Part shown: in pieces, positions 5,613 through 16,721 of the stretch | Position numbering within the stretch: position 1 is the stretch's first letter | How the letters are laid out: each line of letters begins with the position of its first letter | From: a virus | Virus record (IMG/VR): IMGVR_UViG_3300042317_000620 | Coordinates: 1 to 64,000 of that record | Length of the DNA stretch: 64,000 bases | Strand: one strand, 5' to 3' | The notes under the pieces: model-generated | Told to the model about the DNA's origin: nothing | Seen by the model: only the letters and a program-made list of their open reading frames with translations | The model's database searches: none | Program-made: the position numbers and the translations under genes

Positions 5613-5686
5613 GCACCAGTAGCCAAGTTGGTTAAGGCCCCGAACTCATAATTCGGTTATCGTAGGTTCAAGTCCTACCTGGTGTA
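5613..5686 (+). tRNA. tRNA with CAT anticodon (Met, or Ile2)
   Basis: Acceptor stem GCACCAG/CTGGTGT (one G-T pair), anticodon stem CCGAA/TTCGG with loop CTCATAA, T-arm TAGG-TTCAAGT-CCTA. No encoded CCA. Whether it is elongator Met or a lysidine-modified Ile tRNA cannot be settled by eye. Confidence 0.9.
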
Positions 5687-5690
5687 CTAA

Positions 5691-5764
5691 TGGTCTGTAG
5701 CACAATTGGCAGTTGCACTCGGCTGTTAACCGAGATGTTGTAGGTTCGAGTCCTACCAGACCAG
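5691..5764 (+). tRNA. tRNA-Asn (GTT)
   Basis: Acceptor TGGTCTG/CAGACCA, anticodon stem CTCGG/CCGAG with loop CTGTTAA, T-arm GTAGG-TTCGAGT-CCTAC. Four nucleotides after the previous tRNA, suggesting one precursor. No encoded CCA. Confidence 0.93.
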
Positions 5765-5767
5765 CAA

Positions 5768-5839
5768 GGCACCATCGTCTATCGGTTAGGACATCGCCCT
5801 TTCACGGCGAAAAGACGGGTTCGACTCCCGTTGGCGCTA
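5768..5839 (+). tRNA. tRNA-Glu (TTC)
   Basis: Anticodon stem TCGCC/GGCGA with loop CTTTCAC and a T-arm built on GACGGGTTCGACTCCCGT. The acceptor GGCACCA/TGGCGCT has one A-C mismatch and one G-T pair, unusual but tolerable. Confidence 0.9.
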
Positions 5840-5840
5840 C

Positions 5841-5913
5841 GCCCTCATAACTCAGGGGATAGAGTCACGGACTTCTAATCCGTTGGTCGCAGGTTCGAAT
5901 CCTGCTGAGGGCG
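5841..5913 (+). tRNA. tRNA-Arg (TCT)
   Basis: Acceptor GCCCTCA/TGAGGGC, anticodon stem ACGGA/TCCGT with loop CTTCTAA, T-arm GCAGG-TTCGAAT-CCTGC. It would read AGA/AGG, Arg codons favoured in AT-rich genomes. Antisense to the end of the neighbouring SGNH gene. Confidence 0.93.
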
Positions 5914-6784
5914 CATATGTTTTATATGCAAAGTTAGCCCAAGCAAAATGAAACGCATATCCAAAATGAGCATCTTGGTCATCTCTTCTATCGTATGCAT
6001 CAATTATTATTTCTAAATCTTTATTTTTTTCAAAACAATACACAACATCATTAAAAAAATCTTTTTCATTTATTTTATAAAATGTTTTAAAAGAATTATA
6101 AAATTGATTTCCAGTTTTATTTTTATATAATGATAACCAATTTTTATTTTTTATTAAGTCATATCTATTAAACATTGATTGGATCCAAGAAAATGATATT
6201 AGTTCTATGTTATTAGAAAAACAATATTGTTCTAACATATTATATATGTTGTGTGTTAAGATTACTGATAAATAACTTGTTTCTTCCGTTTGATTTCCTT
6301 GTTTTTCTAAATAAATTATATCTCTATAAACATCTGGGAAATTAATAAAAATACAATCTGGCTTTCCAAACTTTTTTATATATTTAAAGATGTTAGATAT
6401 AATTTCAAAATAAGATCCTGCTGGAATTCCTAAATTATAAAAACCAGAAACTTTTTCTTTTAATTTAATTTGATCATATAGTTGTTTTGCCCATATAAAA
6501 TCTTGTGGTAATCCAACACCAAAAGTATTTGAACATCCAGCAAAAAGTAAATGTTTTCCTTCATGTTGATCTTTAAAGTCATCACACCTAAATCCATAGT
6601 TATTTAAATAATAAGTACTAGGATCATCACATAAATAATTTATTATATTTTCTTTTTGAAAATCATATGTCGGTCTTTGAACTGTAGAATTTGTTATAAT
6701 TTTTTTATTTTTTATTGACCAATATGGAACAAAAAAATCATTAGGATTTACAGTTTCTGGATTAAACTTAAAATTATTTAACAT
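5852..6784 (-). CDS. SGNH/GDSL-like esterase, C-terminus running through tRNA-Arg
   Basis: 310 residues. The core shows a GDS-like nucleophile block in LLFAGCSNTFGVG, preceded by GFRCDDFKDQHE, and a C-terminal DDQDAHFGYAFHFAWA that could supply the Asp-His pair. The same blocks occur in the paralogue at 14858-15742. SGNH proteins de-esterify sugars or lipids. Located next to decoration genes, a role in removing or placing acyl groups on glycans is plausible. The last about 20 residues (APSAGFEPATNG...) are the reverse complement of tRNA-Arg, so the native C-terminus may be read-through or degenerate. An AAAGGA site precedes the ATG. Confidence 0.65.
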   Translation of the reverse strand: MLNNFKFNPETVNPNDFFVPYWSIKNKKIITNSTVQRPTYDFQKENIINYLCDDPSTYYLNNYGFRCDDFKDQHEGKHLLFAGCSNTFGVGLPQDFIWAKQLYDQIKLKEKVSGFYNLGIPAGSYFEIISNIFKYIKKFGKPDCIFINFPDVYRDIIYLEKQGNQTEETSYLSVILTHNIYNMLEQYCFSNNIELISFSWIQSMFNRYDLIKNKNWLSLYKNKTGNQFYNSFKTFYKINEKDFFNDVVYCFEKNKDLEIIIDAYDRRDDQDAHFGYAFHFAWANFAYKTYAPSAGFEPATNGLEVRDSIP

Positions 6785-12410: not shown

Positions 12411-13103
12411 CTATTTTTCATAAATTGTTTTATTTTTAAACTGTTTAGATAAAAATAAATCTTTTAATTCTAAGAATGATCCACTTTCCGTTGATAGAAA
12501 TGGATATTTTTTTTCCTCGTAGTTATAAGATAATGATGCAAAATTTTCTGATTTATAAACTTTAACATCTGACATTTCTTTTGACTCATCATTAGATATA
12601 TTGCCATAAATAGATCGATATAACAAGTTATGATTCATTCTTAAAATATTATCAAATTTTTCTTTTGACATCTTCATTGGCACATGTATTTCATAGTTTA
12701 AGGGATTATCAATACCCATCTGTAAAAGTTTGTCATGTGTTGTTTTTAATCTATTTATATAAGAACTTCTTCCAAGCACAGTTTCATAAGCATCAATTTT
12801 ATTTTCTAGTGTGCCACTATAATATGAAACTATTGTATCAATTGGTTTAATAATAAAAAAATCATCATTCATTAAAACAAAATCATCTGGAATATCAGAT
12901 GTATTGCATATTGCTTTAAAGTTATTAAAAGCATTTTTATATTTAGAATATTTTTGATTTACTGGTGCATACTGCCCAACATACCAATCTGGTTTACCAC
13001 CAATTATCCATAAACTATCTACATTGCAATTTTTAACAACAGATCTTATAGAATAACGAAGTTCTTCGTTATCTCCATCTTTGCATATATATACAAAATT
13101 CAT
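12411..13103 (-). CDS. Stealth-like sugar-phosphate transferase
   Basis: 230 residues. FVLMNDDFFIIKP and YEIHVPMKMSKEKF resemble conserved regions of Stealth proteins (capsule and teichoic-type hexose-1-phosphate transferases), and the N-terminus FVYICKDGDNEELRYSIRSV fits their first region. The shape is also compatible with a general GT-A enzyme. It converges on the rightward operon and probably feeds the same glycan. Two bases separate it from the methyltransferase gene upstream. Confidence 0.65.
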   Translation of the reverse strand: MNFVYICKDGDNEELRYSIRSVVKNCNVDSLWIIGGKPDWYVGQYAPVNQKYSKYKNAFNNFKAICNTSDIPDDFVLMNDDFFIIKPIDTIVSYYSGTLENKIDAYETVLGRSSYINRLKTTHDKLLQMGIDNPLNYEIHVPMKMSKEKFDNILRMNHNLLYRSIYGNISNDESKEMSDVKVYKSENFASLSYNYEEKKYPFLSTESGSFLELKDLFLSKQFKNKTIYEK

Positions 13104-13105
13104 AA

Positions 13106-13684
13106 TTACCTTTCAAAGACTAAAACTACTCTATCTCCAAAAATTAACTTTGAATTAATTTTTTGATCTAATTCATTTAGTTTAATATTTTTTTCATACT
13201 TTAATTGCCAATCATTTTTAATAAAAATATTTTTAATTTCATCTATTTTATTTAATTTAATAGAATGATTATCTATTTTGACAACTCTATCTTTTAGTTC
13301 ATTATAATTTACTGTTTCTAAAACAAACATATTTAATGTTTTTATTTTTGTAATCATATTTAAAAAACTTAATGGATCTTTTAACAAATACAAAAGTCCA
13401 AAACAAGAAACAGAATCTATTTGATTCAAATAACATAATTCATCTATATCAATTGTCTCAATATCTTTACAAAGAAAGGTTATGTCTACATATGAATTAT
13501 TTGCAAACATAACCTTTTCTAAGGATATATCTATACCAAAAACATTTTTTGCACCATGCTTTAATAATAAATTTGAGTAATATCCGTCTGAGCACCCAAT
13601 ATCTATTATATTTTTATTAATAAAAAATTTTGTAATATTTTTATTAAATAAAAATGCATGTCTTTTTTTGATAAGACTAGTAAT
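13106..13684 (-). CDS. Class I SAM methyltransferase without a canonical start codon
   Basis: About 192 residues if translation begins at an ATT. Motif I, IIDIGCSDGYYSNLLL, motif II, NVFGIDIS, and a later SCFGLLYLLKDPL block define a Methyltransf_23-like enzyme. The frame upstream of motif I has no ATG, GTG or TTG before the stop of the preceding gene; the first canonical ATG lies after motif II and would destroy the enzyme. AAGAGGA sits 5 nt before the ATT. The frame is identical to that of the upstream oxygenase gene, so stop-codon read-through is the alternative. Confidence 0.6.
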   Translation of the reverse strand: MTSLIKKRHAFLFNKNITKFFINKNIIDIGCSDGYYSNLLLKHGAKNVFGIDISLEKVMFANNSYVDITFLCKDIETIDIDELCYLNQIDSVSCFGLLYLLKDPLSFLNMITKIKTLNMFVLETVNYNELKDRVVKIDNHSIKLNKIDEIKNIFIKNDWQLKYEKNIKLNELDQKINSKLIFGDRVVLVFER

Positions 13685-13693
13685 TGTTTCCTC

Positions 13694-14401
13694 TTACTTA
13701 AGCCAGTTAACCATAGAATATCTTGTGCCATTTGTGACAGCATTAACATTATGGTTATATACATATGTTGATGGGAAAAGCAATAACTGGCTTGCTTTTG
13801 GTTTAATTGTTACACCAAACTTTGGAAAAACAATTTCTCCACCATCGTAATCATCATTAAAATAATAAACTAAAGAAATTTTTCTGGTATAAAAAAGACC
13901 ATCATCAACATGATCAATAAAATAGTTGCCTTCTCCATATTTCATAATTTCATAGTCTTCTTTTTGAGACCAGGTTGGATGCCATTCTTCAGTATATCTA
14001 TCAATATAAGACTTAAAATCTCTTTCAAGTCTTTGAAAAATTCTATCATGCGTTATTACTTCTAATGAAGGAGATACTTTGTCAAAATCTCCATGTCGCC
14101 TTACATTTCTAATGTACATGGTATCCATTGCTTTTCTACCATAGTCTTCAGCAATCTTTTTTTGATCTTTTGGCTGCCAATGCAGTGTTTTTTTAGAAAC
14201 TAACTCTTCAACATCTCTAATATATCTTGGTCCATCTCCAACATTTTGATAAGACACAATTCCTGGAGCATGAACAATAGCATTGTTTTCTTGCGAGTAG
14301 TTTACAACTTTATTTACATCAATAACTGCATCTAGATTTTTTGGCAAAGCCTTGTCTACGTCAATAACCTCTTTAAGATCTGGAGGAATAATTTTTTCCA
14401 T
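13694..14401 (-). CDS. 2OG-Fe(II) oxygenase (prolyl-4-hydroxylase type)
   Basis: 235 residues. The double-stranded beta-helix is marked by FIDHVDDG (first His and Asp iron ligands), the strand YDGGEIVFPKFGVTIKPKA, then YVYNHNV (distal His) and GTRYSMVNW (2-oxoglutarate-binding Arg). This is the P4Hc arrangement; such enzymes hydroxylate proteins, peptides or nucleobases. The ATG is chosen because AAAGGAAAC precedes it; an upstream ATG would read through a hairpin. Ends in frame with the methyltransferase downstream. Confidence 0.85.
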   Translation of the reverse strand: MEKIIPPDLKEVIDVDKALPKNLDAVIDVNKVVNYSQENNAIVHAPGIVSYQNVGDGPRYIRDVEELVSKKTLHWQPKDQKKIAEDYGRKAMDTMYIRNVRRHGDFDKVSPSLEVITHDRIFQRLERDFKSYIDRYTEEWHPTWSQKEDYEIMKYGEGNYFIDHVDDGLFYTRKISLVYYFNDDYDGGEIVFPKFGVTIKPKASQLLLFPSTYVYNHNVNAVTNGTRYSMVNWLK

Positions 14402-14423
14402 TTTGTTTCCTTTCTTTTTATAT

Positions 14424-14450
14424 GGGGTGCTACATATATTATAGCACCCC
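14424..14450 (-). terminator. Strong hairpin (GGGGTGCTA stem), possible attenuator or processing site
   Basis: A perfect 9-bp stem GGGGTGCTA/TAGCACCCC with a 9-nt loop lies between the holin-like gene and the oxygenase gene. No T-run follows on either strand, so it is not a textbook intrinsic terminator; it may attenuate, protect or process the mRNA. The loop on the minus strand reads TAATATATG and contains part of a possible -10 box. Confidence 0.6.
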
Positions 14451-14463
14451 ACTTAAAACATAA

Positions 14464-14748
14464 TTACTTTACTACCTTCTTTGCAGGTGTAGCCTTCTTT
14501 GCAGCCTTCTTTTTTACTGGCTTAACATTCTTCATTGCATTATCAACATCCTTTGCGATTGCATCGAACTTGCCAAATGCTGGATCTTTTGGATTTACTG
14601 CACGAAGAACTACTGGAACTAGAGCAGCCACTAGAGCAGCCCACATGTCCTTTGGATCGGTAATCCCTGCGGTATATAGTGCAACTATACCAGCAAGAAC
14701 TGAACGTCCGTATGAGGCTGCTATAGCCTTTAGTTGTGCTTGATTCAT
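14464..14748 (-). CDS. Putative holin with Lys/Ala tail
   Basis: 94 residues. Two hydrophobic helices, SVLAGIVALYTAG (about 16-28) and MWAALVAALVPVVLRAV (about 35-51), separated by a short polar loop, then a very basic tail (KKKAAKKATPAKKVVK). Small size, two helices and charged C-terminus fit a class II holin. A strong AAAGGAGGG site precedes the ATG. The tail resembles that of the endolysin at 22035-22631. Lysis function is inferred. Confidence 0.55.
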   Translation of the reverse strand: MNQAQLKAIAASYGRSVLAGIVALYTAGITDPKDMWAALVAALVPVVLRAVNPKDPAFGKFDAIAKDVDNAMKNVKPVKKKAAKKATPAKKVVK

Positions 14749-16127: not shown

Positions 16128-16605
16128 TTCGCTCCTCATGTGTTGGCCAATAGTAATTGCATTTTTCACAACATGGTTCATTGTATGGACTAATTGTTGC
16201 ATACTGATACTTGTTATAAAAAATAGGATCCTTTTTAAATAGATTAGCCTTGTGAGTTGTTGTAATACGCATTACCTTATTGTCATTGGACCAGAACATT
16301 GGTGGGGTCTTTCCCCATCTACCCGAACATTTTTCTTTAAGATCATTAAGGTTGTTTTCATTGTTTATTGTCTTAATCCCACGAACCTTAGCCTCTTCTA
16401 TCATGTGCTGTATATAAGACCACAGACCAGCCTCATAGCCCTTCCACATAAGCACTGCAGGGTGATTACGCCATGCCCCAGACGGTGACTCTCCTGACAA
16501 CACCTTGAGTATTTGATACCCCTCAAGGATTTGTTTATTAAGTCTTTTATTGTCTAAGGATTTTGCGGTATATGAAATATTACTAGATGGAAGAAATGTT
16601 TGCAT
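16114..16605 (-). CDS. Pyrimidine-dimer DNA glycosylase/AP lyase (DenV-like)
   Basis: 163 residues of the Pyr_excise family (T4 endonuclease V). Recognisable: MQTFLPSSNISYTAKSLDNK, RLNKQILEGYQIL, and SGAWRNHPAVLMWKGYEAGL with conserved Arg, His and Glu. It incises DNA at cyclobutane dimers, giving UV resistance, which suits a phage of sunlit water. C-terminal part contains CCEKCNYYWPTHEE, a small metal-binding extension. Overlaps the membrane protein downstream by 14 bp. Confidence 0.85.
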   Translation of the reverse strand: MQTFLPSSNISYTAKSLDNKRLNKQILEGYQILKVLSGESPSGAWRNHPAVLMWKGYEAGLWSYIQHMIEEAKVRGIKTINNENNLNDLKEKCSGRWGKTPPMFWSNDNKVMRITTTHKANLFKKDPIFYNKYQYATISPYNEPCCEKCNYYWPTHEERNALV

Positions 16606-16721
16606 TAAACAACCTTAAGGGTATTGCAACGAGTACAGCCAACATATGTATTACCAGTAAATGGACATGCTCCAGCATCTACAAGAACATGACCTTTAAA
16701 TTTGCAGACTAATCTTTGCAT
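16605..16721 (-). CDS. 38-residue Cys-rich protein (DUF1660-like)
   Basis: Encodes MQRLVCKFKGHVLVDAGACP and GCTRCNTLKVV: Cys-x(4)-His, a Cys pair and a final CxxC, typical of small phage zinc proteins related to DUF1660. A GGTGGA site lies 9 nt upstream of the ATG; another ATG two codons earlier overlaps the previous stop. Its TAA overlaps the start of the DenV-like gene (TAATG). Confidence 0.6.
   Translation of the reverse strand: MQRLVCKFKGHVLVDAGACPFTGNTYVGCTRCNTLKVV

Follow-up and report, generated by a model that had tools for sequence, protein, structure and literature searches.

A phage methyltransferase frame without a canonical start codon, directly abutting an oxygenase gene

The stretch of DNA analyzed here, referred to as the window, comprises 64,000 nucleotides (positions 1 to 64,000) of IMG/VR virus record IMGVR_UViG_3300042317_000620, which is 73,169 bases in full and comes from a phage described as lake-type. 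Three consecutive coding regions on the minus strand, for an oxygenase, a methyltransferase (MT) and a putative sugar transferase, define the locus:

13694–14401, minus strand: 2OG-Fe(II) oxygenase gene (PF13640), with its ATG at 14401–14399 and its TAA at 13696–13694
13106–13693, minus strand: SAM-dependent MT frame of 195 codons, with Pfam Methyltransf_31, 25, 11 and 23 above cut-off
13691–13693, minus strand: GAG codon abutting the oxygenase TAA, placed by protein alignments at, or a few codons from, the start in relatives
13690–13693, minus strand: Shine-Dalgarno-like GAGG, read from the sequence, with a duplex energy of -6.3 at the ATT
13682–13684, minus strand: ATT, MT codon 4, candidate initiator; no other near-cognate codon upstream of the SAM motif has a Shine-Dalgarno-like site at usable spacing
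13508–13510, minus strand: ATG, MT codon 62, the first canonical start, downstream of the SAM-binding motif
12411–13103, minus strand: downstream gene (phrog_7999, weak Stealth_CR2), putative sugar transferase, with an ATG preceded by AAAGG

The oxygenase gene and the MT frame share one reading frame, as the initial annotation had recognized, with zero intergenic bases, and the TAA at 13696–13694 is all that separates them. Its observation that no canonical start lies between this stop and the SAM motif also holds: the stop-to-stop MT frame contains no ATG, GTG or TTG through codons 1–61, and the first one, the ATG at 13510–13508, falls past motif II, downstream of both DIGCSDGYYSN and GIDI. 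A protein started at codon 62 would exclude the SAM-binding motif, and gene callers limited to ATG, GTG and TTG would cut the MT protein past it. The coding potential and SAM motif are intact, as had been read, with all 195 codons open. Scores above the Pfam cut-offs (PF13847, 38.2 bits against a cut-off of 27; PF08241, 36.0 against 21.2) and SAM motif I, DIGCSDGYYS, identify the frame as a SAM-dependent methyltransferase of the Pfam methyltransferase clan.

Across this phage's genes, 3.3% of codons are canonical starts, and such codons are wholly missing from 17% of 61-codon stretches; thus, the absence of an internal start over 61 codons is unremarkable. The unusual feature is instead the lack of a start at the 5' end of MT. 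Among 73 long frames surveyed, MT is the only one supported by homology whose first 30% is free of canonical starts, and the remaining late-start frames look spurious, mostly being antisense to real genes.

Relatives, designated by L numbers, were found by searching with MT, the oxygenase and the downstream gene and with a growing alignment; their start codons were called here from sequence rather than by experiment. All seven divergent MT lineages have an ordinary start, ATG in six (L008, L023, L024, L032, L041 and L050) and TTG in L049; the MT genes of L009–L011 are identical copies of that in L008. The window MT is the sole lineage found without a canonical start. The ATG-started N-termini are MDTI (L008), MNSIETKHL (L023), MNNIKTKHL (L024), METKHL (L032), MNKDIETKHL (L041) and MNMETEHL (L050), and the relatives' starts lie 8–21 codons upstream of the first conserved Arg (R11 in the window), a position preceded in the window by 10 codons, none of them a start. 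In the N-terminal alignment M-D-T-I..L of L008 pairs with E-E-T-I..L of the window, placing the window GAG on the L008 start codon; this alignment is short and its register differs between alignments, so that the exact position of the ancestral start can only be approximate. Loss of a canonical start at the MT 5' end is well supported by these homologues. None of the relatives has the ATT as a conserved start. Ordinary starts in relatives were an outcome that the initial annotation had itself named as refuting. Because their starts are ordinary, neither an ATT start nor an in-frame TAA is a conserved regulatory device, and nothing supports the initial proposal that both are regulatory. The isolated-phage collection yielded no match to MT, and the bacterial genome collection only two remote ones (26–27% identity), which identified no host.

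The genomic setting of MT varies among these phages. The oxygenase-then-MT order recurs, among the relatives found, only in L008–L011, where the MT ATG lies 17 nt past the oxygenase TAA and in a different frame. MT directly follows a holin-like gene in L023, L024, L032, L041, L049 and L050, which have no oxygenase match by tblastn, and in L028–L030 the same neighbors are present without MT. Thus, MT is an accessory cassette gene. Comparison of the window (12411–14748, minus strand) with L008, L023, L024, L030, L032, L041, L049 and L050 shows that the slot between the holin-like and phrog_7999 genes may be empty, hold MT alone, or hold oxygenase plus MT. In motifs, neighbors and position the window MT matches the phage class I SAM-dependent MT cassette beside phrog_7999 in L008, L023, L024, L032, L041, L049 and L050, but the window lineage alone is without a canonical start. 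In L012 and L014, second matches on the opposite strand, of ~74–77% identity to the oxygenase 3' part, point to another oxygenase-like copy close by in inverted orientation. In some relatives, a terminator-like hairpin, GGGCATGTAAAAGTGCCCTGTTTT, directly precedes MT and no Shine-Dalgarno sequence is evident (L023 1500–1560 and the upstream regions of L024, L041 and L050); to judge from this arrangement, MT expression in these relatives may be weak or leaderless.

Of the near-cognate codons that precede the SAM motif in the MT frame, just the ATT at 13684–13682 has a Shine-Dalgarno-like site. It lies 9 nt past the oxygenase stop, with GAGG 5 nt upstream. The initial annotation had placed an AAGAGGA 5 nt before this ATT; the site is present, but the full heptamer ends 4 nt before the ATT and 5 nt is the spacing of its GAGG core. 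Such sites stand 5–9 nt upstream of start codons (PMC2268962). The duplex energy at this ATT is -6.3, compared with -10.3 at the oxygenase ATG. Of all in-frame ATTs in the window's long frames, 9.5% score as well or better, so that the match is only moderately unusual and no more than suggestive. Folding of the junction RNA revealed no unusual structure (fold z 0.64). Four clustered tRNA genes (CAT, Asn, Glu and Arg) lie at 5613–5914 on the plus strand. The tRNA with the CAT anticodon (5613–5687) was considered as a special initiator and rejected, as by eye its anticodon stem is without the GGG/CCC pairs of initiators; it could be an Ile2-type tRNA reading AUA, which is plausible in an AT-rich phage.

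The explanation that best accommodates these data, held tentatively and at somewhat less than even confidence, is that MT has lost its start codon and that any residual expression most likely comes from weak re-initiation at AUU, coupled to the oxygenase. The ancestor of the window MT would have been an ordinary ATG- or TTG-started gene. A small junction deletion in this phage lineage may then have removed the start codon and spacer, setting the oxygenase TAA against the next codons of MT; a deletion of length 2 modulo 3 would account for the missing start as well as for the shared frame, which would be accidental. The leader 5' of the oxygenase ATG (AAAGGAAACAAA) resembles the remnant at the MT junction (AAGAGGAAACAA), and a slip between short repeats is conceivable. 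Ribosomes ending the oxygenase would start again at AUU 13684, 9 nt past the stop, where GAGG would position them, to give a protein ~3 residues shorter than that of the closest relative. As neither the reading frame nor the catalytic motifs are damaged, MT is probably still made, at a low level.

Known systems offer partial parallels. In coupled, re-initiating genes, such as M13 gene V–VII, the downstream frame similarly lies within ~10 nt of the stop with GAGG between. In a coupled Escherichia coli reporter, an intercistronic GAGG raised re-initiation more than threefold and a 40-nt spacing abolished coupling (PMC2268962); however, that system re-initiates at a canonical codon, and the window junction offers only AUU. 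A documented case of initiation at AUU is infC (PMC5472188). The likeness to infC, and to the GUC start of Streptomyces sigR, is a non-canonical codon as candidate initiator, here preceded by a Shine-Dalgarno-like site. In those genes the codon is experimentally proven in IF3-dependent regulation (PMC5472188), whereas the window MT has relatives with ordinary starts and no IF3 link. Several points count against AUU use: IF3 rejects AUU-type starts (PMC5472188), ancestral AUG starts have switched to AUU extremely rarely (1 of 61,358 reconstructed in one study; PMC5622118), the Shine-Dalgarno match is modest and the ATT is not conserved. Of the initially proposed ATT initiation, a possible fallback after start loss survives, favored by the GAGG and adjacent stop, and a conserved start does not. 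A stronger version, in which an accessory phage MT that lost its AUG is maintained through AUU, with re-initiation coupled to the oxygenase and the non-canonical start setting dose, is rather unlikely; if true, it would show in nature how a start codon lost to a deletion can be replaced by a near-cognate one. If AUU is used, MT would join the very small number of natural genes known to start with AUU and would show, in a phage, how re-initiation can make good the loss of a start.

Nearly as likely as weak AUU re-initiation, and inseparable from it by sequence alone, is a recent null allele, in which start loss has ended useful production of MT and the frame is intact through recency. One sign of a pseudogene is present, as the start signal is lost relative to functional homologues, but no stop or frameshift occurs across the 195 AT-rich codons. 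Approximately 1 in 17 single random substitutions would create a stop in the MT frame and none is present; therefore, the frame has not been drifting long. Differences between the window and L008 by codon position are 0.41/0.27/0.50, and L008 shows the same pattern against the other intact homologues. Because the patterns are equal, the window frame has been under protein constraint for nearly all its history, and the start loss is thus either recent or tolerated. The SAM motif is retained save for isolated changes, and the same allele occurs in four records from different metagenomes, both of which, like the open frame and its constraint, argue against a null allele. Other evidence favors one. 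AUU starts are very rare (PMC5622118), and the cassette is dispensable, given that L028–L030 are without MT between the same neighbors. The sole polymorphism in MT, at position 13287 in L004, alters an amino acid (Arg to Lys). The window MT also has the longest end branch in the MT tree, which has poor branch support (1.52 against a median of 0.42), and it keeps the fewest conserved columns: 36 of 48 (75%) of those invariant in the other seven lineages, each of which keeps 86–100%. The long branch and lost columns may reflect relaxed selection, or the lineage may just be an outlier. If AUU is unused, the locus would show an accessory phage gene as its decay begins, within a cassette gained and lost among relatives.

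Read-through of the TAA, which the initial annotation had offered as a route to an oxygenase-methyltransferase fusion, is improbable. The shared frame, zero intergenic bases and missing MT start would fit it, but a shared frame is expected by chance one time in three and the junction structure is ordinary. The in-frame arrangement is not kept in L008–L011, the only other case of this gene order; because their MT starts at an ATG of its own, 17 nt past the TAA and out of frame, a fusion is not conserved. TAA is also the commonest stop of this phage, ending 43 of the 73 long frames, and for the same reason reassignment of TAA was rejected. To our knowledge, TAA followed by G is not a known leaky signal.

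Still less probable is translation that begins within the 3' end of the oxygenase, in the +1 frame, and then shifts by -1 into the MT frame at A_AAA_AAA, a heptamer just 5' of the first conserved Arg of MT. An open frame at 13764–13606 (..TCA AAA AAA GAC) would enter the MT frame upon a -1 slip. However, seven-A runs occur here at ~0.7 per kb per strand, the candidate ATGs have by eye no Shine-Dalgarno-like site upstream, the residues preceding the A run are already homologue-like in the MT frame (T-I...L), and the slip site is not conserved in relatives. This slippery-site route was rejected, since the heptamer, though present, is of a kind that chance makes common and has no support.

An assembly or sequencing error that conceals an ordinary start codon, similarly improbable, could be suspected in an AT-rich junction on a metagenome-derived contig, but is largely refuted by three contigs from other metagenomes (3300044858, 3300042556 and 3300042485) that match the window with 0, 0 and 1 mismatches over 1,501 nt. 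All three read the same junction, which leaves little place for the indel or ATG that the initial annotation had named as a refuting outcome and brings this allele to four records. Their SNPs relative to the window fall outside the junction, at 12670, at 13287 and in a group at 16522–16591. Within 16522–16606, seven clustered SNPs relative to L003 are followed by loss of the match, which suggests a recombination breakpoint or a contig-end artifact.
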